From: Halioglobus sp.
Lineage (GTDB): Bacteria; Pseudomonadota; Gammaproteobacteria; Pseudomonadales; Halieaceae
DNA length: 64,000 bases
Assembly (NCBI GenBank): GCA_002699145.1
Contig: PABK01000058.1
Coordinates: 52,203-116,202 of the forward strand
Direction of reading: 5' to 3'
The notes under the pieces were generated by a model that was not told the origin of the DNA, did not search any database, and saw only the letters and a program-made list of their open reading frames with translations. Shown one piece after another: positions 25,389-64,000 of the stretch; the stretch's first letter is position 1, and every line of letters starts with the position of its first letter. The position numbers and the translations under genes are program-made.

Positions 25389-25475
25389 GCCCAGGTGGTG
25401 AAATTGGTAGACACGCTAGCTTCAGGTGCTAGTGCTCGCAAGGGCGTGGAGGTTCAAGTCCTCTCCTGGGCACCA
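25389..25475 (+). tRNA. tRNA-Leu (CAG)
   Basis: 87 bases with CCA encoded. Acceptor stem GCCCAGG/CCTGGGC, D-loop GTGGTGAAATTGGTAGAC, anticodon stem CTAGC/GCTAG around loop TTCAGGT with anticodon CAG at 25423-25425, a long variable arm (class II, expected for leucine) and T-arm GAGGTTCAAGTCCTC. The ICE begins immediately after its 3' end. Confidence 0.95.
25449..25475 (+). other. Probable attL core in tRNA 3' end
   Basis: The GC-rich core genome stops at the tRNA 3' end and lower-GC mobile DNA starts directly after it, so the T-arm/acceptor end is the likely recombination site. The exact core cannot be set without the attR copy, which is beyond the window. Confidence 0.55.
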
Positions 25476-26998: not shown

Positions 26999-28069
26999 CT
27001 ACGCCCCCTCGGTCGTAATACCCTGTAAATGTAACTTCAGAAATTTAATGAACAGCGCCTGAACATTTTCAACCGGCAGGTGGTTGGGAATTGAATCGAA
27101 TTTGTGGAACATATTGTCGCGGATTTCCTTTAAGGACTTAAAGGACTTCACATCGTCATTTGCTTCGTCAGGGTCAAGGATCGCAGAGATAACCAAAAAC
27201 TTATCGACGATCCTGTACTTGTCCTTCATAACATCTTTGAGTCGCTCGAAAATCGGCGTCGAAGATTCCGGAGCCCCCTGCTCCATGACCGCAAACCACT
27301 GTCGTTCATAGAGAGACTTGAAGGTCGCATTTACAAAGATTTCAAGGGCGGACCATGCAGAGATAAATGCCGGAAGGGAATCCATACCAGCCTGCAGTGA
27401 TGACAGCAGCAGCCTGACTGGCCGCTCAAGGGCCGGGGCAGCGGCCAGAGGAGCTGCCAAAGCAGCAACTTCTGCCGCAAATTCCTCCCCTATCGGGCTG
27501 GAGACATAAGCGCCAACCCTGCCCGCCTCAAAATTGAACGGATAGATCGGTATCCCTTTATCCGGATCAACCAGATATAGAACGCTACCGATCTCTTCTA
27601 GTTTTTTGTCCGCCTGGGTGGGCAAACCAAGTGCCGCACCAACGAGGACACATTCAATTGAAGCTTTGAACGGTTTTCGCAGCTCGCCTTTTGGCACATC
27701 ATCCAACGAAACTGCAAAGCCGTCCCTATCCTTACGCGTCTTGAAGTCCGGCGGATCGATTTCATCGGAGCCCTCGAATATGAGATACACACCCGCTGAT
27801 TGCTTTTCTTGCCGCTCTGTCTGAATCCGCGCAAGTTCAACTGTGAGCCGCTCCTCTGGCGAGCCGTCCGTACTGTCACCAAACAAACCTCTGAAAAGCA
27901 AAGAGACCAGCGCGTGCGAACGATCAATGTGCTCAAAATATGGATCTGGATTAGCAGTCAGAGAAGCAGTGATGTTCGGATTCTCACCTTCGCAGAGACC
28001 CAATGGATCATCACCCGATAATCCGTTCGCGCCACGGAGCTTGTAAACAGCTACGTATCTTACTTCCAT
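26999..28069 (-). CDS. Hypothetical protein with C-terminal HEPN-like Rx4H motif
   Basis: Protein of 356 residues that I do not recognise as a named family. Residues about 230-356 form a helical region with FISAWSALEIFVN and EIRDNMFHKFD; Arg317 and His322 make an Rx4H motif as in HEPN RNases (Apea-like HEPN proteins look similar). An RNA-cleaving, abortive-infection role is therefore plausible but inferred. The N-terminal 200 residues look alpha/beta and have no known motif. Its ATG overlaps the DUF2779 stop as TAATG, so it is translationally coupled to the defence operon. Confidence 0.7.
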   Translation of the reverse strand: MEVRYVAVYKLRGANGLSGDDPLGLCEGENPNITASLTANPDPYFEHIDRSHALVSLLFRGLFGDSTDGSPEERLTVELARIQTERQEKQSAGVYLIFEGSDEIDPPDFKTRKDRDGFAVSLDDVPKGELRKPFKASIECVLVGAALGLPTQADKKLEEIGSVLYLVDPDKGIPIYPFNFEAGRVGAYVSSPIGEEFAAEVAALAAPLAAAPALERPVRLLLSSLQAGMDSLPAFISAWSALEIFVNATFKSLYERQWFAVMEQGAPESSTPIFERLKDVMKDKYRIVDKFLVISAILDPDEANDDVKSFKSLKEIRDNMFHKFDSIPNHLPVENVQALFIKFLKLHLQGITTEGA

Positions 28070-29478
28070 TATATCGACTCAAGAAAACGATAAATTTCAA
28101 CCATCGCAAAAGTGTCTAGCCTGCAATAGCTCAACAGATCTGATGCAATCTTTTCGGCCTCATCAGGGGGCGCATCGATCATGCGCCGCCACGCTTCCAT
28201 AGCGGAAGCTCCATCCTGCACTACGAGTTCCTTGTAATCGAGGTGCGGACAAACAACGGGAAGCACTTTCTTGATGGATGTCGAACCGTCAAATCGTGCA
28301 TCAACATAATCGGACTTGAACACGTCCTCCAGATCGACCATCCGGTCGTTGAGGTCATTCAAAAAATCGGTCTTGTCCGGGTAACGCTTCGCTAGCTCCC
28401 TGTTTCGGGTTTCCTCGAAGGATTTGTGCCAGGAAACAATACTGCCGGTCGGGCCGATGTCTTCCTGCATCCGCGCGACCAGCCGATCAGGCAATCGCGC
28501 TTCCCTTTCCAGATATTCCTTGTGATCGAGTGAACCATCGGCTTCCAGCACATGCAGGGAATACTGCACCGGAAAATGCTTGTGCGGGCCGGTGCCGTCG
28601 AGATACGGCACAGCGGCGGAATAGGTTTCATAGTCAAAGAAGTACAGCGGGAAGCTGAGCCCTGACAGGAACCTTTGGATAGCCGCTTCGTTGATCTTTG
28701 GTGCATTGTGCTGAAAGGACTCGACCACAAGACGCTGATTGTCAGACAACGTAAATTCGCCCGGAACCTCATCGAGCCCGACAACTTTCATAGCACGAAG
28801 ATCGCGTATCTTGTTTTGTCGTATGAAGGGCAGACTGTAGATCGACGGCGTCGGTACAGTGGGGTTGAACAGTGAAAACGCATCGCAATGATTCGCACGC
28901 GTTTTTTCGGTACAGGAACACCCGTTCATGTCGTGATCGCTTGCCAGAAAAGCCAGCGCGGCGTCGATCTCCGCGCTTGTCTCTGCCAAAACATCATCAA
29001 CCGCCTCGGTAATATCGGCAAAGACGAGCATTGCGCTCGGGTCGATTTCACCGTCTCGAACATATTCCCCGTTCAAGTGAACAAGGAACACGCCGTCGAT
29101 ACTCTGCCCGGCGCGTTCCGCGCAAATCTTCTGAAAGCAGGCATCCTTGAGGTGGTTATGTTTGGCGTCAGTTTTGACGCTGGTCGAAGACTTGACCTCA
29201 TAGAGCGCGGTCGTCCCGCCGCTCATCTTCTCCAAAACGTCCACCCGTGCAAACAGGCCGTCGTCCGTCTCGAACACGGCCTGAAAACTCGCATCCCGAT
29301 CACCAGCGCTCTCAAAAAGCTGCTTAACGTAATGCTCGACTTCATAGCCTTCACGGACGAGCTTCTGCATGAAGGTGGAGAATTCCCCATGCGGATAATG
29401 ATCCGGGGCCGTCTTTAGGAGCCAGAGGGATTTCGGGCAGTTCAGATACTGGATGAAATCGGTTTTAGTGAGTTGCAT
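28069..29478 (-). CDS. DUF2779 protein: Cas4-like nuclease plus RNase H-fold domain
   Basis: 469 residues. The N-terminal part looks like a PD-(D/E)XK nuclease: Asp80 in FARVDVL and Glu94/Lys96 in YEVKSS. Cys14, Cys187, Cys189 and Cys198 could hold an iron-sulphur cluster as in Cas4/AddB. The C-terminal DUF2779 has DEDD-like residues, FFDYETYS (Asp282, Glu284) and YCRLDTFAMVEI. Such proteins should degrade DNA or RNA ends. The ORF track extends upstream; ATG 29478 (MQLTKTDFIQYLNCPKSLWLL) is the family start. It follows herA by 52 bases and overlaps the HEPN-like gene. Confidence 0.8.
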   Translation of the reverse strand: MQLTKTDFIQYLNCPKSLWLLKTAPDHYPHGEFSTFMQKLVREGYEVEHYVKQLFESAGDRDASFQAVFETDDGLFARVDVLEKMSGGTTALYEVKSSTSVKTDAKHNHLKDACFQKICAERAGQSIDGVFLVHLNGEYVRDGEIDPSAMLVFADITEAVDDVLAETSAEIDAALAFLASDHDMNGCSCTEKTRANHCDAFSLFNPTVPTPSIYSLPFIRQNKIRDLRAMKVVGLDEVPGEFTLSDNQRLVVESFQHNAPKINEAAIQRFLSGLSFPLYFFDYETYSAAVPYLDGTGPHKHFPVQYSLHVLEADGSLDHKEYLEREARLPDRLVARMQEDIGPTGSIVSWHKSFEETRNRELAKRYPDKTDFLNDLNDRMVDLEDVFKSDYVDARFDGSTSIKKVLPVVCPHLDYKELVVQDGASAMEAWRRMIDAPPDEAEKIASDLLSYCRLDTFAMVEIYRFLESI

Positions 29479-29530: not shown

Positions 29531-31582
29531 TTAGGGTTTCCAGCAGACGTCTGGGTCCGCAGGAACATACCATATATCTCGAACCTGGGTGTCGTTGCTA
29601 TATGGTGTGGGATTGGCATCACGCACGCGGAACGTTGTTGGGATATTCACCGAGTTGCCGAAGATTAACGCGTGTTGCTTGGGCAAAGACGGTAAGCGCC
29701 TGAGCACTGTTTCGGAAATAAACGGCGTCATCTGTCTAATCTGCGACAAATCATCGGGGTTCTGGATGCGGTGAATAATGAAGTTGTTGCACTGAGAAAG
29801 GACAGTCTTTGAGAGTTCACTTGGTCTTTGGGAAGCCACAATCAGAAAAGCACCGTATTTCCTTCCTTCTTTCGCGATTCTTTGGAACGTGATGCCTGCA
29901 TCAATTGCAAATCGGCTTGGCTTCTCGGAAATATAGCGGTGTGCCTCCTCCAAAAGCAGGTGAACCGGCATGGCATTGCGCGGATCGGCGCGGCGCATGC
30001 GATCAAAGATGAGTCGAGCAACAACCGCTGAAGCAAGTTCTACGATCTCGTCAGAGGCATCATTTAGATCGATTATGCAGATTTGGCGCTCCTTTTTGTA
30101 ACGCTCGTTTTGGACTGCAATCCCGAGCAGGCGATCTACATAATGCGTCGGTTCACGGTCATGGTCTTGTAGATCACCGACATCTGCCCGTAGAAACTCA
30201 TAATCAGGGTTATCTATCACGGACTTGAGACGTGTAACCAACTGCGAGCAGTATTCGCGGATCTGCTTGTTACCGTTGGCTTCCTCATAGAAAAGAGCAA
30301 GATCAAGTGCGGCTTGAAGCCTATCGAATGAAAACGGCATGTTCCCATAGCTTGGCAGAACGGGTTCATCCTTTACATGCCCTTCCAGAAAAATAAGAAG
30401 ATTGTCATAGTTGTTGGATGTATTTGAGTTCTTCCCGTCCTTGAACTGACCAAAGTCGTTGTATAGGCCTTGTGAGACAGTGTTTTTTGATATCTCATTA
30501 GTCGAGAATGTATTTAGAAGGGCAAGAATACGGTCTGCTTTGCTCGGAGTGCTAGCATCGCTGTGCAAGATCGAAAGAATGATCTTGGCTAGGACGTGAT
30601 TGCGGATGATTTTCAGGCTCTCATCGGTGTCGCCGCCTAGGTTCGCTACTTGCGCAGGCGTTTCCTGAAATAGCGTAGTCAAGCCAAGAGCGGTGCGGAG
30701 AGCAGGAATTTGCGACTTTTCGCTAGCTCTCAAAAGCAACGCCCATTCGTCGACACTCATGAACCAGTGGGGAAGCTTGAATCTATCCTTGATCTCCGCG
30801 CCTTGCCTTTTTTGGGAAACGTCAGGAATTGGCATATCCGGCTCTGTCGCCTTGAGGTAGCAGGACCGAATCCAGCCAGGTACATTGTCGAGCGCTCGCC
30901 GATATTCACCGTTCACGTCGAAAATCACGAAGGCTGAACCAAGTGCAGCGAAAGCCTCGGGCTTCATAAACACGGACTGGAAGATTGATGCAACAGTGCA
31001 TGATTTTCCGCTTCCGGTGTTTCCAAGCACGGCAACATGACCGCCAAACAATTCATCAAGCCGTGACTTGACGGGATAGCCTTTGAAGACTGCAGAAGTG
31101 CCAATTTCTATGGTATAGGGAACATTACCCTGTTGGTCTGTACCCCCAGCGTCTTTTTTTGTTTCGAGCTCAGATGGCTGTTCGACATTAAAAATACGAT
31201 CAAGATCTTCATCGCGCGCATAGAGGGCGTCCGCGTAAAGCGGTGGAAACGTGGAGACTCCAAACCGAAAGCTACCACCCTGCATCGGCATCGAACCTAC
31301 AGGCACGACGTCAAGAAATTTGGCGGATGAGGCTTTGTCCATTTCTGTCTGGGACGCGTCCGAGGATGCGCTGTCTTTTTCGCGCAGGCCTATAATCTCA
31401 AGAACAATATGCTCGGCCTGCATTGGGACCATTAAATAGGAACCAAGTGTCGCGACATAGTGGATATCGTCAAAACCGACGATAGTGAAGTTATCGCTGC
31501 CCCTATGCAGCTCAACAATTAACCGGTCAGCCGATACACTGACAATTTTTCCTATAGCGCGGCTAGCATCATCCCTCGCCAT
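29531..31582 (-). CDS. HerA-like DNA translocase ATPase
   Basis: 683 residues of the HerA/DUF87 FtsK-type ATPase family. N-terminal HAS-barrel-like domain (IGKIVSVSADRLIVEL), Walker A LGNTGSGKSC near residues 184-193, Walker B VHLLLEEAHRYI and the sensor stretch ASQRPSELSKTVLSQCNNF. In SIR2-HerA (Nezha) systems a HerA hexamer assembles with SIR2 and senses or processes phage DNA. The start is ATG 31582 (MARDDASRAIGK), which overlaps the SIR2 stop by 14 bases; the ORF track start is 8 codons earlier. Overlap and order support a joint complex. Confidence 0.9.
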   Translation of the reverse strand: MARDDASRAIGKIVSVSADRLIVELHRGSDNFTIVGFDDIHYVATLGSYLMVPMQAEHIVLEIIGLREKDSASSDASQTEMDKASSAKFLDVVPVGSMPMQGGSFRFGVSTFPPLYADALYARDEDLDRIFNVEQPSELETKKDAGGTDQQGNVPYTIEIGTSAVFKGYPVKSRLDELFGGHVAVLGNTGSGKSCTVASIFQSVFMKPEAFAALGSAFVIFDVNGEYRRALDNVPGWIRSCYLKATEPDMPIPDVSQKRQGAEIKDRFKLPHWFMSVDEWALLLRASEKSQIPALRTALGLTTLFQETPAQVANLGGDTDESLKIIRNHVLAKIILSILHSDASTPSKADRILALLNTFSTNEISKNTVSQGLYNDFGQFKDGKNSNTSNNYDNLLIFLEGHVKDEPVLPSYGNMPFSFDRLQAALDLALFYEEANGNKQIREYCSQLVTRLKSVIDNPDYEFLRADVGDLQDHDREPTHYVDRLLGIAVQNERYKKERQICIIDLNDASDEIVELASAVVARLIFDRMRRADPRNAMPVHLLLEEAHRYISEKPSRFAIDAGITFQRIAKEGRKYGAFLIVASQRPSELSKTVLSQCNNFIIHRIQNPDDLSQIRQMTPFISETVLRRLPSLPKQHALIFGNSVNIPTTFRVRDANPTPYSNDTQVRDIWYVPADPDVCWKP

Positions 31583-32849
31583 TTTCTTTGTCCTGCTGCT
31601 TGGCAAGAAGCGTCTGCAATGCTTTTTCTATGGTCTGGTCGATCTCTTGATCAGCACTAGTGGGCAGAAGATGATTGACGATGCCGTCGAAGTAATGAGC
31701 TTTTTGGCCAGCTTGCTTGCCATCGCCCCAGACGAACCAAATGCGGGGATCACCGAGCGCTGAAAGCTCTCGAGTAATGTCGTTCATCTCGGGGTCGATG
31801 AAGGCTACAAGTCTGAAGCCGGGCAAGGCCAGCCCTTGAAAAATGATGTTATTGACGTGCTCGTCTGCGAAGCTGTATCCCATGACAATCAGGACGCTCT
31901 GATCCTGAACAACCTGCCTTTGAAATTCGCGGAACATATCAGAGTACGGCGAACCAAAGCTTGCCGTCTGTTTAGACGGTGTCGGGTAAATCATGACTCG
32001 ATCTGTGGACGGATCAAGCGGGCTATGCGACTCACGAATCGGGAAGAGACCTTTTTCCTCTTCAGTCCAATTGACGGAACCGTGCAACTTGCAGAAGTGT
32101 ACAAATCCTCCGACGGCAGCCCAACGGCGCGAGGTGATATCCAGCTGTTCCGCCAGTGCTAGTCTGTAAGTGGCAGGATTAAACCTCCGCTCTACAGTTC
32201 CTGAAAAGCCGTTAGAGTACGGAATTCCTGAGCGATCCATAGCGCGTTCATTGAAAAGATCGTAATTGGTCGTGAACACCCAAGGCGGTGCGAGACCACG
32301 GGAACGCGTAGCCAGGGACTGGTAAAATCGCCGATATTGCGCGACGACGCTCTCATCTCCATTGGAAAAGGGGCCTGTTGTGCACTTGTACAGGACGAAC
32401 TTTTTGATACCCGCAATAATCTGATCAACCAGGGTAGCAACAGAACTCAGTTCTCCTTTCCCACTTGCTTTGCAGAATTGATGGGCGTTGATAAGAACCT
32501 CCATCATCCGCTCAAGATTGCCCTTCACGTCATCGGCAGAAAGATCAATGCCGAGCTTGTCGTGAAGTTCGTCCTTTTGCGCGGGGCAGACAAAGACCTC
32601 TCCACCATTATCGGCGGGCTCCGCAGCGAGCAACGTCTGAAATTCTTCTGCCAGAAATCTCATAGTTGAAATTCCTAGCTCATCGTCGCCAATTCTCAGC
32701 GAAGAACAACCCGAGCCCAATAAAAAGGACAGATTCTTGGCTCCAAATACTTCCGCCATCTGACGCTGGATGATGTCCGCTTTGTCTTCCCAAGAACTTT
32801 CACCCTTGAGCTTTTGGAATTCGTCGCGGCTTCCCTTTAAAAATTTCAT
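31569..32849 (-). CDS. SIR2-family defence NADase
   Basis: 426 residues. SIR2 fold motifs: FLLGSGCSS at 42-50 (nucleotide-binding loop), VFTTNYD around 191-197 and KLHGSVNW at 254-261, then GYSFADEHVN. Defence SIR2 proteins deplete NAD+ after phage sensing. The catalytic Asn and His (TTN, LHGS) are both present. The C-terminus ends in a Lys/Gln-rich tail. ATG 32849 is 4 bases after the Res stop; the longer ORF would overlap Res. Paired with HerA, it forms a Nezha-like module. Confidence 0.88.
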   Translation of the reverse strand: MKFLKGSRDEFQKLKGESSWEDKADIIQRQMAEVFGAKNLSFLLGSGCSSLRIGDDELGISTMRFLAEEFQTLLAAEPADNGGEVFVCPAQKDELHDKLGIDLSADDVKGNLERMMEVLINAHQFCKASGKGELSSVATLVDQIIAGIKKFVLYKCTTGPFSNGDESVVAQYRRFYQSLATRSRGLAPPWVFTTNYDLFNERAMDRSGIPYSNGFSGTVERRFNPATYRLALAEQLDITSRRWAAVGGFVHFCKLHGSVNWTEEEKGLFPIRESHSPLDPSTDRVMIYPTPSKQTASFGSPYSDMFREFQRQVVQDQSVLIVMGYSFADEHVNNIIFQGLALPGFRLVAFIDPEMNDITRELSALGDPRIWFVWGDGKQAGQKAHYFDGIVNHLLPTSADQEIDQTIEKALQTLLAKQQDKENGEG

Positions 32850-32853
32850 ATCA

Positions 32854-35800
32854 CTACGCCGCCACCCCGTTAACCACATCCATCAGTTTTGAATAATCGG
32901 TAACAACATCATATTTAACTTTGTCAGCATCAATCCGATCATTTAGCTCGGCGAAGAATTTCCGTGCGCACTCAATCTTAGTTTTCTCTATCTCGCGCAA
33001 CTTCATTGAGGACATGGAGCCCTTTGTCTCAGCGACGAAGTAAATATGTTTCACACTACCTTGCTTGAACGATATGGCCCAGTCAGGGTTGTAGTCCCCT
33101 ACTGGCGTCGGGATCAGGAAACCTCGTGGAAGCTTGGCATAGACCACTATTTCAGTGCTGGTGTCTAACTCATCTACGAAATGACGTTCTACATCAGAAT
33201 CCGTTATGCAGTAGTCGTAGATATGATTGTTCAGCTTACCTGTGGCGCGAGAAAAATCCTGTCCGGTCTGCGCAGCGGTGAAAATATCCGCGTCATACCG
33301 GTCCTCGACCTCGTCGTAGCAGAGCTGCTCAATGATGACAGTCGCCTTCTGTTCCTTAATCAGGCGCGACGCTTCGGCAATGAAGTGTTCCGGATTACTA
33401 CGGAACTGATCGAAAACCACAGGCTGAATGCCTGACAGAATTTCGGCGACAGTCTTGCGCGTAAGCTGCACGTTTTCAGCAACTTTGCCAATCAGGTCAT
33501 AGGTGACGTCCGAGTGAACAGCCCCCCCGTACTCCGTAGTGGTCTCGGTGACCTTGAAGCTCTCGCCAGACTTAAGCTGGTCATCAGTTATTGCCGCTGC
33601 TTGCTCGCCCGCATGGACAGTGTACTGTAGCGGCGTAACGCGTAGATGGCTGTCGAGAGCTCCAGTAGCTTTCCTGATCAGTTCATCGGATTCAAAGTCA
33701 ACACGATAGACCGCCTTACGATTGATGCGCGACCAGAGTGCCTGGAATTCCTTTTTGTGGAAATTGTCGTTGAGTGGATTGGTTTTTGGCTTCCGACCGT
33801 CTTCGATCTTCGGCAACTTGCTGTCATCGAAAACGCTGTCAATCAGATCGATGATCTGGTCTGCGTAAGGTTTTAAATCATCAGGGAGGGCGGCGAGCTT
33901 CCCGGCCTCTTTATCTGCGTGATAGCTGTCCGTGATTGCGTCGCTATCGTCAGTGTAGTCGTTCTTGATCAAGTAGCGATAGATCTGCTTCGCCATTTGT
34001 GGCGTGATCTCGACAGTGCCGCCCTCAGTTTCCATCACTTTACCGGTGAAATACTCTTCAGTAGCTTTGCGCGGGCGTGCCGAGAGCGTCTCAGCAATTT
34101 CCGTCTGCAAGCCTTTAACAAAGTCTTTATAACTCTCGCTTGCTACAACCGTTAGGACGTTGATCTCATGAACAACTGCGGGAAGATCCATACGCTCACC
34201 GTGCTGGTCCACGGACAGACGCAACCCCCTGCCGACCTCCTGGCGACGGGAGATGGTGTTGTCGCTATGCTTGAGCATACACATGACAAAAACATTCGGG
34301 TTATCCCACCCTTCCCGCAGCGCAGAGTGGGAGAAAATGAAACGGGTCGGCTCTATGAACGAGAGAAGCCGTTCCTTGTCCTTCAGGATCAGGTCGTAGG
34401 CGTCCACATCGTCGGATAGGCCTGCTTGTTCGCCAGTCTTCTTGGCCGCCGGGTCCTTCAAGCGATTGGTTTTCTTATCAATCGAGAAATAGCCGTTGTG
34501 TGTCGAACCGGGACCAATTCCGGAGAGATACTTGCGGTAATCCTCATTGTCGATTGCCAGCTCTGAGAGGTACTCATCTCTGAGACGGGTGTATTCCTCT
34601 TCGAAGACTCGAGCATAAATGCCCTTTTCATCATCCTGGTCGTAGTCGCGGTACTTGACCACCTCATCGATAAAAAAGAGGGACAGGACCTTGATGCCCT
34701 GGGCGAAGTGCTGCTTTTCTTTGTCTAGGTGCGCCTTGATCGTCTCGCGTATTTGAATACGGCGAATGTCGTTCTCGTTGACGTCTCCTGTTGCTTCCCC
34801 GGCAGATAGCACGACGCCATTGGTGAACTCGACAGTATCGTTGTTGTAGTCGATCTGAGACATAGTGAAACCGCGATACTGATCCAACTCGCCAGATGCG
34901 ACAAAGAGGTCGTCACCAAATTCAAGGCGCTTTAGCAGCCGTTTGATCTCACCCGACTTGAGCTTGACCTCCAACTCGATACGGGCCACGGGCGCTTTCT
35001 TCGAAATATCGATGCCTTCGAGGTACAAATAGGCATTGGTGCCTGCCAAGCCGCGCGTCTGAATGCCGCGCACCGCGATTTTCTTAACGAGCTTCTGGTT
35101 ATAGGCGTCAAGTGCGTCGAGACGATGCACTTTCAGGTGGTTAGTCCTGTGTGTTGCTGAGTACCGTAAGATCATTAGCGGATTGAACTTCGGGAGCGCG
35201 TCCAGTGTGGCCTTGCCTTCCATTTTCTGGGGTTCGTCCAGGATAAGGATGGGCCGGTTACTGCTGATCACGTCAATTGGTCGGCGAGATTGAAAATCAT
35301 CCAGCTCGTCGTAAATCCGTCGGTTGTCGGCTCCGCGTGCATTGAAGGCCTGGATGTTAATGATCATGACGTTGATGCCCGCATCTGAAGAAAAGCCTTC
35401 CAGTTCGTGCAGTCGTTTTGAGTTATAAATGAAAAAGCGGGCTTTCTTGCGGTAGGTCTCGGCGAAATGGTCGCCGGTGATCTGGAAGGATTTGGAGACG
35501 CCTTCCCGAATGGCGATACTCGGCACCATGATGATGAACTTTGACCAGCCGTATCGCTTGTTCATCTCAAAAATTGATTTGATGTAGCAGTAAGTCTTTC
35601 CGGTGCCAGTCTCCATCTCGATATCGAGATTAACTTTGGCTCCTGGCTTGTACGTCCTAGGCTTGGTCTTGCTATTTCCGGACTTATCCACTTCACTGAA
35701 ATCGTCCAAAGTTTTCGAAACTGGCAAATTCTGGTGTTTTTGGACGGTCTGGATGTTGGTGAGCAGTTGGACGTCGGTCAGGCGGATATCTTCGTTCTTG

Positions 35801-35949
35801 AACCCCTCGTCAAACGCACTTGCCTGGGCAGCTTTGCCTGGGTCGATCCGGTAGCGAAGCCCATTACTTTTTGGCTGGCCCGCAAAGCACTCGACCACTG
35901 CATCGACTGCATTTGTCTGATACTCCTGAACTTTAAACTTAAGCTTCAT
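32854..35949 (-). CDS. Type III restriction-like helicase-nuclease (Res)
   Basis: 1031 residues. SF2 helicase: Walker [10 protein letters not shown] near 112-120, DEPQ box ([10 protein letters not shown]) and LRYSATHRT; the helicase C-terminal half has [15 protein letters not shown] and [13 protein letters not shown]-terminal PD-(D/E)XK nuclease is seen in YNPDWAI...FVAETKG near 945-975. This is the layout of type III restriction subunits, which cleave after ATP-dependent movement when two sites lack methylation. Follows mod by 17 bases. In this setting it may act with the SNF2 and DUF4391 proteins rather than as a simple type III enzyme. Confidence 0.9.
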
Positions 35950-35966
35950 TTCAGCCGTCTCTTTTG

Positions 35967-37859
35967 TTAAATCGACTTAACGTCGGTTGCGGGAGAGAGC
36001 TGGCGGAAGATCTGATCCACGTTGATCTTTACCGCATCTGAGACAAATCCGTTGTCACGGAAGACGACGCGCATCGGTTCGTATTTCGCAAGGTACTTGA
36101 CAAGATCTTCGGTGATCCCCTCCTCGAAGCAAGCAATGAGGTCGTAGGGCTCCTCGTTGACGAAGAATACCGTCTTTCCTCGAATCTCTTCGCTGCGAAT
36201 GGGGAGGGTTAAATCGACGCCCCAGTCCACCAAGACCTGGAACAGCAGGTCTTCCGGATTATCGCGACCGGGTTTGATGTTGTCGACGGCGCCGAGCAAA
36301 TCTTCTTGTTTTAACTTGTTCGGTGTGTAGTAGACGTCCGCCATATTGGATGTGTCAATCTTCAGAACGCGAAAACCGACGTCGTTATTCCAATCCTCGT
36401 GGCTTGAACCGCCTAGTACATTTTTGCCCGCGCGGCGGACACGTTCCTTGGATAGCTCAGAGATAGTGTTGAACCCTGCTTTTTTTGCTTCAGATTTTTC
36501 GTTTACCGGCTCAGGCGACTGAACCATTACAAATCGCCTATTCCCACCGTCGAGTGCATTGGACTTAAAAACACTATGTGCAGTCGTCGAAGAGCCTGCG
36601 AAGAAATCTAAAACAATGTCATGGTCGTTTCTCCGGGTGCATATCTCAAGCAACCTACCTATCAACTTGGTTGGTTTTGGGGTGTCAAATACTTTTGGTT
36701 TTTCAAACAAGGAAAGAAGTTCATCAGATGCATCTTCGTTGCTACCAACTTCTTCGTATCCCCAGTAGGAAGGAACCGTTTGCCCCTCTACTTCAGAAAG
36801 GAAGCGCTTAATTCGAGGGACGTTGTCGCCTGATCCACCAAACCAAATCCGATTATCGTTCTTAAGTTCTATAAATGTCTTTTCGATCAGGCCCCAAGAG
36901 CGACCTTCGGGCGGCCCAATGACTCTCCCGCTAGGCAATTCCACATCGAAAAACTGGTCCTTTGTCGCTCGACCAATCATTCCAGTCATGTCAACAGACG
37001 CCCAAGGACCTCTTGGATCATTATCAGGATTAGTAAACGATGCTTTCCTTTTCTCGCTTAAGGCCATTTTCCCAATAGCCTTCTTAGGTTGTTCAGAGTT
37101 CTTTACGTAGCAAAGCAAATAGTCATGCACACTACCAATCGTAGATCGGGCATCAGGGGATGCTTTCTTTCTCCATACCACCGCGGCCAGAAAGCTATTT
37201 TCTCCAAATATTTCGTCTACTACTTTTTTCAGATTATCGCGTTCATGGTCATCTGTAGATATAAACAAAGCACCGTCATCGGAAAGTAGGTTTCTAGCCA
37301 ACCTAATTCGGGCAGCAATCATTGAGAGCCAATCGGAGTGAAAACGCCCATTGCTCTCTGTGTTTGAAATTAGGTTATTCCCAAGTTCATCTTGTTGATT
37401 CGATTTAATGAGAAAACTGAGGTTGTCCTCAGTAAAATCATCGTCATACACAAAGTCACTGCCAGTGTTATAAGGTGGGTCGATATAGATCAACTTCACT
37501 TTGCCAAGATAGGTCTCCTGAAGCAGTTTGAGTGCTTCAAGGTTGTCTCCCTCAATGAAGAGATTTTTTGTCGTATCGAAATTGACGCTTTCTTCCCTAC
37601 ACGGACGGAGCGTTTTAGCGATAGGAGCATTGGCGGCGAGAAGCGCTTCTCGCTTGCCGGGCCAATTCAGTTGATAACGTTCTTTTGGGCCTTCGATAAT
37701 ATGGTCTGAAAGCTCCTGGCGTAGTTGATCAAAATCGATGGCGAGGCGTAGGTCACCGTTTTCGTCGATTGCCTCCGTCACACAGCCCGGGAACAACTCG
37801 CGGATTTTGACGATGTTATCGTCTGTGAGGTTAGGGCTGTGCATTTTTAGCTTTTCCAT
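35967..37859 (-). CDS. Type III-like adenine DNA methyltransferase (Mod)
   Basis: 630 residues. Amino-methyltransferase motif [14 protein letters not shown] near 120-131 precedes motif I-type [12 protein letters not shown] near 417, the beta-class order of type III Mod proteins; the DPPY form fits N6-adenine. It would mark host DNA and give Res its target sequence. Start taken at ATG 37859 ([15 protein letters not shown]), 16 bases after the DUF4391 stop; the ORF track start 15 codons earlier overlaps DUF4391. Recognition sequence cannot be read from the protein. Confidence 0.9.
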
Positions 37860-37875
37860 CTCGATTTTGGCCTCT

Positions 37876-38556
37876 TCATTCCTTGGCTGAAGCTGCGCCG
37901 CCAAGGCGTTTCAGTTCTTTGGTTACGTCACGTAGCTCTGCGTTGATCGCAACGCGCTTGTTGAATTGTTTCTCTTTAGCCAGGCGCGCCTTGATGCGCT
38001 CGGCTTCACGCTGTTTAGCTCGTATCGTCTCCATCCGCAGAACGCGAGAAGCGATAGGCTCATCTGATTTTTTCGTTGCCGGAAGCAGAGGGCGCAATAA
38101 CGCCTCATAAAGACTATTGAGATTGAGGGCCTGGGGAAGAGGTTGTCTGGGGCTATCCTCAGCTTCCCAGTCGGTGCCGAAATACTCACTTACTACCCAT
38201 TTTGTGCTGTCCGCTTCGCTAGGACGCTTGTAGGCCGCTATGATTTTCCGTTTCCCGGCGTGGGTAAGCTCGAAGATAATCGGAAACGGTATCGCCTTGT
38301 CGATCGCGCGGAGAACCTCTTCGCTAATCTTGGAGGTTCGCAGGTTGATCTTGAAGACCTGTATCTCGGATACGGATTTCGTTGCGCCAAGGTTAATCGT
38401 CTCTGGCGCGAGCTTGTACTGCCAGATGATCTGGTCGACCTGGTCAACGAAAAGCTGCTTCAGCTTCGCCCCGGCACTGGCGTGGGCATAAATCTTGCTC
38501 TTCGGTAGAACCCTTCCGAACAAGGCCGCTTTGGGGTATTCGAAGAAGACGGTCAT
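37876..38556 (-). CDS. DUF4391 family protein
   Basis: 226 residues. The pattern MTVFFEYPKAALFGRVLPKSKIYAHA at the N-terminus and the INLGAT...EIQVFKINLR segment are typical of DUF4391, a family found beside type III-like methyltransferases and SNF2 helicases. The last 50 residues form a charged coiled coil (KQREAERIKARLAKEKQF). No catalytic motif is evident; an adaptor between the helicase and Mod is a reasonable guess. Its ATG overlaps the helicase stop as ATGA. Confidence 0.82.
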   Translation of the reverse strand: MTVFFEYPKAALFGRVLPKSKIYAHASAGAKLKQLFVDQVDQIIWQYKLAPETINLGATKSVSEIQVFKINLRTSKISEEVLRAIDKAIPFPIIFELTHAGKRKIIAAYKRPSEADSTKWVVSEYFGTDWEAEDSPRQPLPQALNLNSLYEALLRPLLPATKKSDEPIASRVLRMETIRAKQREAERIKARLAKEKQFNKRVAINAELRDVTKELKRLGGAASAKE

Positions 38557-41500
38557 GAACCAGCCTCCTCGATTACCAAGAACGCTACAAGCTCGAAGTC
38601 GTCGAGCCCCACAATGGTGTTGACCAGCGCCGTTGTGCGACCTCCAGAGAACAGGCTGTCGAGATCCTTCTCTTCCTTGACGTCAATCATTGACCGAATT
38701 GCGGAGCTGAGTAGCTCCGACTGTCGGTTCATCTTCCGGCCATCTTCGGTGCGCTCGTTGAACAGGCGGCAAACGGCTTGTATCGGCTCGGATTGACCCT
38801 TGCAGCTTGTCCGCACCAAATCCAGTAGGCGCTTCACCTCCGTATGATCAGCGATGATCTCTCCATCTGCGGAGATGTAGACGAGGTAATAAGGGTGCAG
38901 GCGGTTTTGCTGGTTTACATTCACGCTATCGTGGATGTTTTTAAGGGCAAAGATGATGCCCGGCGGCAGGCCTTTGTCAGGGTCGGCGGGCACGACGGCG
39001 TGTAACCCATTTGGCACACGCTCAAGATCGCCATTCTCCTTAACGTAGTTAAGGAGGTCCATGCGGAAATCATTGAGACCCAAATCGGTAATCGAAACAC
39101 CGGTCTTCACGTCCTCCAGTTCGATGACCTCTTCCTGGAGGCGCTTGAGCTGTTCCTTCCTGTAGGCAATTTCGCTGCTCTTGGCGGTCAGAACATTATC
39201 ATCGCCGGTTGCCGTTACGTCGGCGATCATCATCCGGTTTTCGACGCGCTCCTTCAGATTGATGTATTCATCAAGCGAAATATCAGGCCAGTAATTGACG
39301 AGCTGGATTTGCGCGTTTGGTGAGCCGATACGGTCGATCCGCCCGAAACGCTGGATAATCCGTACCGGGTTCCAATGAATGTCGTAGTTAACCAGATAGT
39401 CGCAGTCCTGAAGGTTCTGTCCTTCCGAAATGCAGTCTGTTCCAATCAGAATGTCGATCTCATTGTCTTCGTTCGGAAGGATCAGGTGCTTTTCCTTCGA
39501 GCGCGGCGAGAACAGTGTGAGAATGGACTGGAAGTCATAGGTCTTCTTCAGAGTGGTTTTGGGCGCGTCAGAGCCAGTGACCTTCGCGCAATGCAGGCCT
39601 TTGGTCTTGAGGTTCTCATTGGCCAGGTTGGCGTAAAGGTAGTTCGCCGTATCAGCGAAGGCGGTGAAGATCAGGACTTTTCGATTACCACTGTTGATGG
39701 GATTCGCGACCTTCCCGCTGATGTGTTCTTTGAGGTGCTGAAGCTTGGCGTCATCATCGGGACGAATCATATCCATCGAGGCCAAGAGTGCATCGATGAT
39801 TGCCAGGTCGCCTTTCAGTTCGTGCTGCCAGGACTGAACATCCATGTCTGCCAGGCTGATCTGGACCTTTTTACCAACGGTAAATTCACCTAATCCGGCC
39901 AGGTCGTCATCATCCGGGTCAAATGCGGACGCATTGGCTGTGTAATCCGAGACCTGTAACGTACCCCCGGATCGCTCAAAGTCCGCGATTGCGTCGAGCG
40001 TGCCGGTGAGGTTCTGTTTAAGCGACCCCAATGTGAGACGGAAGGCCTCCACTGAGCTTTCCAGGCGCTTAAGCAGGTTTGTAGTCATGAGCGCTTGCAG
40101 GCTGCGTTCCCGGTCTACTTGCTTGAGGCGACCTCTGCCGCCGCCGACTTCGGTATCGTAAAGAGACTCGTACTTCGCAACCCGGCTCGGAAGGATGTAG
40201 CTGAGTGGCGCATAGACTGCCAACTTGAGCAACGAGAGCTGGCCGACAATCTCATTGAGATCCATTACATCGGTGCGTGTTGTCAGCGGGCAATGAAAGG
40301 AAAGCGGCTTCCGGCGCTCTGGAAATTTCCCGATATCGGCTGTGTCGTAGAAGGTCTCGATGTGTTTTCGCGAGCGAGCGATAGTCACGCTGTCGAGAAG
40401 CTCGAAGAAATCGAAATCCAGCATCTTCAGGATTGAGGAAGCTGTCCGCTCTTCCGGGGGCAGCTTCGACCAGGTGTTAAAGGCCGTTTGGGCGCGCCGG
40501 AATATCTCCTCAACACTGGAGGCGATTTTCAGCTTTTCGCTGAGGGCTTCTGACTCTCCCTCATAGGCGAGGGCAAGCTGGTTCCGAAGGTCATTGAACC
40601 GGTTGTTGACCGGGGTGGCCGACAACATCAGGACCTTTGTCTTCACACCCTCACGGATGACCTGGTTCATCAACTTCTGATAACGAGTCTCTTTGTCTTT
40701 GTAGATATCGTTGTTGCGGAAATTATGAGACTCGTCGATCACGACCAGATCGTAGTTACCCCAGTTAACGCGGTTTAAGGGGATGCCGAAGGAGTCGCCG
40801 CTGGTGCGTGACAGATCGGTGTGGCAAAGAACATCGTAGTTGAACCGGTCTTTGGCAAAGAGGTTCGTTTTCAGATTTGTATTGTAGTTCAGCCAGTTAT
40901 CCGCGAGCTTCTTCGGGCATAAGACAAGGACCGCCCGGTTGCGAAGCTCGTAGTATTTAATAACCGCTAACGCCGTGAATGTTTTTCCGAGGCCGACGCT
41001 GTCGGCGAGAATGCAACCATTGTAGGTTTCCAGCTTGTTTATGATGCCGGTCGCGGCGTCACGCTGAAAGTTGAATAGCTTTTTCCAGACCTCGCTCTCC
41101 AGATAGCCCGTCCTGTCATTGGGCAAGACATCTTCATCAACCTCCTCCAGGAACTCGCTGAAGATGTTGTAGAGGATCAAGAAGTAGATCTTTTCCGGGG
41201 AGTTCTCCTGGTAGACAGACTCAATGTGGCTGCATATTGCTTCGGTGACATCCTCTAACTTATCTGGATCGGCCCAGATTTGGTTAAAGAGGTCGAGGTA
41301 GGTATTGGTGTAAGGTGCGCCGTCGAAGCGATTGACGATGTTGGAGACTGCATCACCTTTCTGGAGACCGAGATCAACTGCGGTAAAACCGTTTACCGGC
41401 ATATAGGCGATTTGTTCTGAGCCATTCTCCATACAAATGAACTGCTGCATCGGTGCCTTTGTTTTATTGGAATGGAACGTCGCTTTCTTGCGTATCCAGG

Positions 41501-41828
41501 CTGCACATTCCCGAGCGATCGCCTTTTGGGTCAGCTTATTGCGTAGTTGAATTTCGAACTCTGATCCGTACAGGCTTCTTTCACGCTGAGTTTTTGGAAT
41601 GAAGAACTCGCGGCGTTCTTTCTTGAAGCGATCGGTTGCGCCTTCGGGAACAAATGTGGGAGCGGTAAAAATGAATTGAATGCTGTCGATGTTCTCCAGT
41701 TCTTTTTTCAGTGATTCAAATGCATAGATAGAAAAGCAGGACGCGGCGATCTTCAATTTCGTTTGCGGTCGGATAGACGCTTTAAGATCGTCACCGAGCA
41801 AATAATTAATATTGTCGATTACTTGCAT
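38553..41828 (-). CDS. SNF2/RapA-type helicase with N-terminal PLD-like region
   Basis: 1091 residues. Walker A LADSVGLGKTF near 275-285, DESHNFRN box, LSATPVNNRFNDLRNQL, and the C-terminal helicase motifs GTDCISEGQNLQ and RIIQRFGRIDRIGSPN near 830. The first 180 residues (LKIAASCFSIYAFESLKKEL) resemble the phospholipase D-like domain attached to many defence helicases, but I do not see an intact HxK(x)4D motif, so it may be inactive. Likely an ATP-dependent DNA translocase. First large gene of the operon, 59 bases after the HTH gene. Confidence 0.88.
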   Translation of the reverse strand: MQVIDNINYLLGDDLKASIRPQTKLKIAASCFSIYAFESLKKELENIDSIQFIFTAPTFVPEGATDRFKKERREFFIPKTQRERSLYGSEFEIQLRNKLTQKAIARECAAWIRKKATFHSNKTKAPMQQFICMENGSEQIAYMPVNGFTAVDLGLQKGDAVSNIVNRFDGAPYTNTYLDLFNQIWADPDKLEDVTEAICSHIESVYQENSPEKIYFLILYNIFSEFLEEVDEDVLPNDRTGYLESEVWKKLFNFQRDAATGIINKLETYNGCILADSVGLGKTFTALAVIKYYELRNRAVLVLCPKKLADNWLNYNTNLKTNLFAKDRFNYDVLCHTDLSRTSGDSFGIPLNRVNWGNYDLVVIDESHNFRNNDIYKDKETRYQKLMNQVIREGVKTKVLMLSATPVNNRFNDLRNQLALAYEGESEALSEKLKIASSVEEIFRRAQTAFNTWSKLPPEERTASSILKMLDFDFFELLDSVTIARSRKHIETFYDTADIGKFPERRKPLSFHCPLTTRTDVMDLNEIVGQLSLLKLAVYAPLSYILPSRVAKYESLYDTEVGGGRGRLKQVDRERSLQALMTTNLLKRLESSVEAFRLTLGSLKQNLTGTLDAIADFERSGGTLQVSDYTANASAFDPDDDDLAGLGEFTVGKKVQISLADMDVQSWQHELKGDLAIIDALLASMDMIRPDDDAKLQHLKEHISGKVANPINSGNRKVLIFTAFADTANYLYANLANENLKTKGLHCAKVTGSDAPKTTLKKTYDFQSILTLFSPRSKEKHLILPNEDNEIDILIGTDCISEGQNLQDCDYLVNYDIHWNPVRIIQRFGRIDRIGSPNAQIQLVNYWPDISLDEYINLKERVENRMMIADVTATGDDNVLTAKSSEIAYRKEQLKRLQEEVIELEDVKTGVSITDLGLNDFRMDLLNYVKENGDLERVPNGLHAVVPADPDKGLPPGIIFALKNIHDSVNVNQQNRLHPYYLVYISADGEIIADHTEVKRLLDLVRTSCKGQSEPIQAVCRLFNERTEDGRKMNRQSELLSSAIRSMIDVKEEKDLDSLFSGGRTTALVNTIVGLDDFELVAFLVIEEAGS

Positions 41829-63178: not shown

Positions 63179-64000
63179 CTATCGACCTAAATAAACTGCG
63201 CTGATCTGCTCGCGGGCATGGCCGAGTTCGCGGCTGATAATGAGTCGTGCCTGGAGATCCAGCTTGCGTTGATCGGCGCTAAGACTGGCGGCGGTCGGTC
63301 CACCGGCGGCCGGACAGGCCCAGCCGGTCAATTGTTCAAAGCGTGCCTGGGCGTAGGCATGGCGCAGGCCATGCAGCTTCGACAGTCCCGCTTGTGTGGT
63401 ATGGCGCTCGTAGGTTCTCAACTGCTGGATGTAGTTTTTCTGGGAAGGAATCAGGGATCCATTCCCGGCCAAACGGTGCGCCCGATCCAGGACGGCTCGC
63501 TGGTCCTGACGGAGGATCGGCACGACGCGTGCCTTACCGCCCTTGGTCCAGGCCGCCTTGAGCCGGATATGATCACCCTGATCGGCGAACCCCGGCATGA
63601 ATTTGATTGCCTCCTCTCTTCGCAAACCGAAGGCGCGTTGCAGCTCCAGGCTCATACGCACGTGGTCATCCTGGATACTCGACAGTGCCTGGCTATCGAC
63701 CGCGACCGCCTTGGACTCGTTACTAACGAATTGCCGATCGGGGATGCCGTAGAACTCGTTCGAGCGGGCAATGACATTGCGCCGGTCCACTTTCGCGGCC
63801 CACCACCGCAAGCAGTTCATGCGGTTTTTGATGGTACCGGCCGCCATACCCTCACCGAGCCAGCGTTTTACGAGGGCATCGACATGCTTTGGCTTCAGGG
63901 ATCGAGTGGTCATGCGCCGATACCCCATTTCCTGCAACTGATTCGCAATCTGGTTGAGCATACGCGCACGGTTGGCTTGCGTGCTGTAACTGCCATCGCG
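63179..64000 (-). CDS. Tyrosine recombinase-type integrase domain protein (5' end off window)
   Basis: At least 260 residues; the frame stays open to the right edge (RDGSYSTQANRAR precedes the first ATG at 63961), so the N-terminus is probably outside. SAM-like core-binding domain with LKPKHVDALVKRWL; catalytic residues visible are Arg in FGLRREEA, Lys in TKGGKARVV, HGLRH, GHAREQ and the Tyr in AVYLGR at the C-terminus. PFGI-1-like ICEs carry such an integrase-domain protein near pilL. Whether it integrates the ICE at tRNA-Leu is not known; it is about 38 kb from attL. Confidence 0.85.
   Translation of the reverse strand, partial: RDGSYSTQANRARMLNQIANQLQEMGYRRMTTRSLKPKHVDALVKRWLGEGMAAGTIKNRMNCLRWWAAKVDRRNVIARSNEFYGIPDRQFVSNESKAVAVDSQALSSIQDDHVRMSLELQRAFGLRREEAIKFMPGFADQGDHIRLKAAWTKGGKARVVPILRQDQRAVLDRAHRLAGNGSLIPSQKNYIQQLRTYERHTTQAGLSKLHGLRHAYAQARFEQLTGWACPAAGGPTAASLSADQRKLDLQARLIISRELGHAREQISAVYLGR

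Follow-up and report, generated by a model that had tools for sequence, protein, structure and literature searches.

The gene examined here lies in a window of 64,000 nucleotides from Halioglobus sp., by which we mean the whole stretch of DNA that was analysed, and it occupies positions 28069-29478 of the minus strand. Its limits are exact (ATG at 29478, stop codon at 28069-28071), as the preliminary description had given them, and the open reading frame, together with profile matches and conservation, defines a DUF2779 protein of 469 aa. It belongs to a run of minus-strand genes that reads SNF2-like helicase, DUF4391, type III Mod, Res, SIR2, HerA, DUF2779 and a 356-aa ORF. A gap of 52 bp separates it from the gene for a HerA ATPase (29531-31606, minus strand; PADLOC PDLC04102, 1.7e-284; DUF87), which is overlapped by that for a SIR2 protein (31569-32879, minus strand; PADLOC PDLC04084, 3.5e-171; SIR2_2). 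Both match the PADLOC SIR2-HerA models at nearly full length and form the adjacent pair expected of that system. Positions 32854-41828 hold a compact four-gene RM-like unit, co-oriented with SIR2-HerA and composed of type III Mod and Res, DUF4391 and the SNF2-like helicase (38553-41828, minus strand, named from sequence). No cas1 or cas2 context was found, the neighbours in the window being SIR2-HerA, the type III RM genes and the 356-aa ORF.

The 356-aa ORF (26999-28069, minus strand) begins within the stop codon of the DUF2779 gene, its ATG overlapping that codon as TAATG. It gave no Pfam or NCBIfam match and one marginal PADLOC match, and its C-terminal R-x4-H motif (RDNMFH here; RDGLLH in one 45% relative, from Sinorhizobium chiapasense), of the kind seen in HEPN RNases, makes it a possible candidate for such an RNase. 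A tRNA-Leu gene (CAG) at 25389-25475 borders the defence cargo and genes of conjugation type lie on the other side, with conjugation-type ATPases within 42723-63961 and a tyrosine recombinase-like ORF at 63179-63961. The whole is probably an integrative conjugative element that bears the type III RM genes together with SIR2-HerA-DUF2779.

The DUF2779 protein is almost certainly a dual nuclease. Its C-terminal part (approximately residues 273-469; 28072-28662, minus strand) is an RNase H-like domain of the DEDD-type (DEDDy) 3'-5' exonucleases, matched by PF11074 (DUF2779) over residues 279-401 (7.5e-36 in Pfam; 123.6 bits, above the curated threshold of 23.3) and by RNase_H_2 (PF13482) over residues 294-464 (1.4e-4 in Pfam). 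The N-terminal part (approximately residues 1-205; 28864-29478, minus strand) is a Cas4-like PD-(D/E)XK domain, and weak Cas4 matches cover residues 3-166 (PADLOC, 9.8e-6; TIGR00372, 2.6e-4), the TIGR00372 score of 20.9 bits lying below the equivalog cut-off of 65. Beyond weak Cas4 and marginal Cas1, PADLOC yielded no match. No NurA-family match was obtained in Pfam or NCBIfam, no TM0106-family NCBIfam model matched at E 0.01, and a search by sequence for relatives with solved structures found none.

Conservation and modelling also support the two domains. The window protein was aligned with 36 relatives (28-67% identity), and D80, E94, K96, D112, Q116, D282, E284, E355, Y451 and D455 are invariant in all 37 sequences; mean column identity is 48% in a 31-row alignment. 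These residues include the active-site set of the Cas4 family, D80, E94-x-K96 and Q116 (minus-strand codons at 29239-29241 for D80, 29197-29199 for E94 and 29191-29193 for K96), and the DEDDy set D282-x-E284, E355 and Y451-x3-D455, in which E355 stands for the D of motif II. An AlphaFold2 model built from 31 sequences reached a pLDDT of 93.5 and a pTM of 0.88. In Foldseek searches against the PDB, its N-terminal domain matched Cas4 (7mi4, E 4e-6; 8d3l), human EXO5 (7lw9, E 1e-4) and SSO0001 (4ic1), and its C-terminal domain matched, weakly, E. coli ExoI and the exonuclease domain of PolC (E 0.26-0.3). When predicted structures of viral proteins were compared, giant-virus proteins gave the best matches over the full length, the top one being YprB-like. 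The joining of a PD-(D/E)XK nuclease to a DEDD exonuclease fold, as the preliminary description had proposed, thus agrees with both conservation and model, and we predict that the protein degrades DNA as an exonuclease and carries two active sites, one Cas4/EXO5-like and one DEDDy 3'-5'.

The same description had pointed to four cysteines, C14 (29437-29439), C187 (28918-28920), C189 (28912-28914) and C198 (28885-28887, all minus strand), and these, like D80, E94 and K96, are where it placed them. C14 is kept in 35 of the 37 sequences, one of the two exceptions being cut by a contig end, and C187 and C198 in 36 each; C189 is present in 13/13 members of the close clade described below and is displaced or absent in some distant DUF2779 proteins. 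The full set, one N-terminal and three distal, occurs in each of the 12 close-clade members whose N-terminus is complete, so that close homologues retain both the catalytic set (37/37) and the cysteines (12/12), but it does not extend to the whole DUF2779 family. At least four cysteines are found in 29 of the 37 proteins; the other eight comprise one truncated sequence, six patescibacterial proteins with three, and L035. The set is common to the close clade and many other DUF2779 proteins, and a putative Fe-S cluster is probably present in the Cas4/EXO5-like domain. In the protein of L035 (7998-9404), C14 is gone, as are the conserved distal cysteines, and D/E/K is kept; it is a natural variant, probably without the cluster. 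Because D/E/K persists even there, the nuclease residues are more strictly kept than the cysteines.

A genome scan for DUF2779 relatives gave 35 loci, and the window protein falls into a clade of 13 members (support 100/100) from Alpha- and Gammaproteobacteria, Acidobacteriota and Verrucomicrobiota. Upstream sequence is visible for 11 of the 13, and these were used in the neighbour counts. In 8/11 the immediate upstream neighbour on the same strand is a known defence system: SIR2-HerA, in two subtypes by PADLOC, in the window and L007; DRT3 with its ncRNA in L012, L013, L014 and L016; a short pAgo with a SMEK REase in L011; and SoFic in L008. The gaps to the upstream system are 3-10 bp in L008 and L011. 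Among the others, L018 carries a Shango system placed divergently to the DUF2779 gene, and L009 and L015 have no recognised defence partner beside it. Upstream of the gene in L034, a partial relative, lie RT_UG19, HsdM/HsdS and an HNH gene. RNase_T exonuclease genes also lie near DUF2779 in two clade members, at 1788-2663 in L010 and, directly downstream, at 9501-10205 in L009. The clade is linked to at least four types of defence system; it is horizontally mobile and attaches directly behind several unrelated anti-phage systems.

Under a simple model of random placement, 8/11 has a probability of 1.5e-9, or about 4e-7 when near-identical loci are collapsed. For comparison, among distant DUF2779 genes, most of them patescibacterial, 0/11 have an upstream neighbour with a PADLOC match, a difference with p of about 5e-4 in Fisher's test, the control being imperfect in that existing models may cover the defence genes of Patescibacteria less well. 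Distant members of the family have AAA, NACHT, PLD and helicase genes around them on plasmids, or ordinary genes in Patescibacteria; the plasmid neighbours labelled 'ATP-binding' were considered as possible HerAs and rejected, as they proved to be AAA, NACHT or HATPase proteins. For the close clade, a phage origin was also rejected, since a single-protein query of 2.9 million viral contigs returned no close relative; an alignment query of the contigs recovered only distant relatives (23-39%), and the protein has no PHROG match.

The HerA proteins of the window and L007 are 26% identical and belong to two unrelated SIR2-HerA subtypes, and a single DUF2779 origin for the linkage was rejected, the two DUF2779 genes not being sisters (p-AU 0.001). 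Because they do not form a clade, the link arose repeatedly or was widely lost. DUF2779 is not a constant component of SIR2-HerA systems, as it is missing from L041, L044 and L058; in L041, the nearest SIR2-HerA relative of the window (HerA 77%), the third gene is an unrelated ORF of 274 aa. In alphaproteobacterial loci, herA is overlapped, or followed at a short distance, by the gene for a 297-aa DEDD RNase_T exonuclease (L042, 8024-8917; L053, 8018-8908; L054/L059, 8039-8929 in L054; L057, 507-1397), and the HerA proteins of these loci are 52-57% identical to that of the window and 79-95% among themselves. In L043 the exonuclease is degraded to an N-terminal remnant. The same third slot is therefore filled by genes of two unrelated kinds, which have nothing but a DEDD-type exonuclease domain in common.

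An ncRNA with a ACACACAC template lies 41 bases past drt3b in 4/4 DRT3 loci (L012, L013, L014 from Kiloniella, and L016), the position that it also has in DRT3 systems without DUF2779, that of E. coli among them, and the DUF2779 gene starts downstream of it, 187-247 bases past drt3b. Between L012 and L014, Drt3a, Drt3b and DUF2779 are 50%, 52% and 52% identical, a parallel divergence expected if the three were inherited jointly, and the tree allows a single origin of the linkage (p-AU 0.30). In L013 and L016 (8001-9410 in each; Sneathiella and Henriciella MAGs), the DUF2779 proteins are 97% and the DRT3 proteins 99% identical, a sign that the DRT3-ncRNA-DUF2779 unit was transferred whole and recently between families. 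Alphaproteobacterial DRT3 loci without DUF2779 also occur (L083, L085). Since many DRT3 and SIR2-HerA systems do without the gene (these two, the three SIR2-HerA loci named above, L055 and L056), it is optional.

We consider it quite likely that the clade protein is an accessory to defence systems, acting, as we would propose, on DNA ends or single strands on behalf of its partner. It might do so as a brake: the nuclease would digest the DNA that arms the partner, namely ends for SIR2-HerA, the repeat-DNA product for DRT3 and, for the short Argonaute, its guide or target DNA, and the lethal effector would fire only once a phage overwhelms the nuclease or blocks it. In E. coli, the repeat-DNA product of DRT3 arrests growth when it accumulates, and RecBCD is thought to hold it down; DRT3 and the loss of RecBCD are synthetically lethal in combination, as are DRT9 and the loss of ExoI, such that host exonucleases keep the product below a threshold (PMC13174585, a preprint). 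We favour the brake over a co-effector or an independent gene because a host dsDNA exonuclease reportedly restrains the DRT3 product in this way, and because DUF2779, which follows DRT3 and other abortive systems, combines a Cas4/EXO5-like with an ExoI-like domain; even so, we put its chance at rather under even. The idea comes from work on DRT3 in E. coli, and its extension to SIR2-HerA, SoFic and pAgo would hold by analogy. SoFic, an AMPylator with no obvious nucleic-acid trigger, fits it least well, and the window's genome contains a RecB-sized UvrD-family ORF, so a substitute nuclease may not be needed there, which counts against a brake. The reading that we prefer as a whole, of a mobile accessory dual nuclease behind anti-phage systems that serves here as the third gene of SIR2-HerA and may act as a brake rather than an effector, is tentative and falls only a little short of an even chance; nuclease activity, substrate, braking and relevance to SIR2-HerA would each have to follow from the features described.

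Nuclease effectors are common in defence islands, and the protein could instead be an effector or co-effector that destroys phage DNA directly, as a second attack beside its upstream system. Its two intact nuclease sites, and its position behind systems whose own effectors differ, suit this explanation, which nevertheless does not account for the plain DEDD exonuclease, a weak effector by itself, that fills the same slot in other SIR2-HerA operons; we regard it as unlikely, if still a serious competitor. That DUF2779 is a stand-alone defence or repair gene that merely resides in defence islands and works independently of the genes beside it seems more doubtful again. The loci without a recognised partner (L009, L015), where the gene may work alone, speak for it, as do the great diversity of partners, the many partner systems without DUF2779 and the settings of the distant members, but the constant downstream position on the same strand, the short gaps in L008 and L011 and the divergence parallel to DRT3 do not fit a gene without ties. 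The preliminary description had coupled the protein to HerA as an end-processing machine like HerA-NurA. The herA gene is indeed directly upstream, and 3'-5' exonuclease domains fused to HerA/FtsK have been reported in other defence operons (PMC10853773). However, HerA here pairs with SIR2, HerA is upstream in only 2/11 clade loci and in subtypes of 26% identity, the closest SIR2-HerA relative is without DUF2779, and no NurA match was found; HerA specificity is rejected by the other 9/11 loci, and such a machine appears very improbable.

Catalogues treat each defence system as a constant set of genes. That one clade recurs behind SIR2-HerA, DRT3, short Argonaute and SoFic points to a common accessory layer that such catalogues miss, and DUF2779 looks like a portable add-on to anti-virus systems, not the partner of one particular motor protein. 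If the brake is real, it would explain the spread of such toxic systems into hosts with differing nucleases, and the guard role reported for RecBCD and ExoI would become directly testable with an operon-encoded enzyme. It would be tempting to go further and see in one mobile dual-nuclease gene a guard, encoded in the operon, of mechanistically unrelated abortive systems, which would clear activating DNA, set the firing threshold and make phage inhibition of the nuclease the trigger, as a portable stand-in for RecBCD or ExoI. This wider idea is speculative, and we think it improbable in its full form.

The fusion of the two domains is not new. DUF2779 was placed in 2014 as clade F.17 of the RNase H-like superfamily, with a DUF83/Cas4-like PD-(D/E)XK domain and a predicted 3'-5' exonuclease (PMC3985635), the same pair as in the window protein, and the DUF2779 text of that paper, in the part available, gives no tested function or partners. 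In the portions accessible, the literature naming DUF2779 has no apparent link to SIR2-HerA, DRT3, pAgo or SoFic, and our literature search found nothing on an Argonaute-associated Cas4 or a third SIR2-HerA gene; as far as the literature searched shows, the recurrent attachment of the clade to unrelated defence systems is undescribed. Cas4, whether CAS-Cas4 or solo-Cas4 (PMC5704561), and human EXO5 share with the window protein the fold, D/E-x-K and one N-terminal plus three distal cysteines, whereas the window protein has an additional nuclease domain, a C-x1-C-x8-C spacing and weak Cas4 model scores under the curated cut-off, and there are no cas genes near its own. The COG2251/TM0106 RecB-like nucleases with PF13482 have an analogous PD-(D/E)XK and RNase_H_2 architecture, although the window protein matches no TM0106 model. 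With the guarding of DRT3 and DRT9 by RecBCD and ExoI (PMC13174585) it would share the idea that an exonuclease limits the build-up of a reverse transcriptase product, but the nuclease there is a housekeeping enzyme of the host, whereas here a dual nuclease is encoded beside the DRT3 operon. The likeness to HerA-NurA is that a nuclease gene adjoins a HerA gene; in contrast, the window nuclease is no NurA relative by profile search, its HerA is linked to SIR2 and it has relatives without HerA. Finally, the SIR2 and HerA of the window are clear members of SIR2-HerA (Nezha) by the PADLOC models, yet that system as described has two genes, and here a third is added, DUF2779 in the window and L007 and an RNase_T exonuclease in the alphaproteobacterial relatives.
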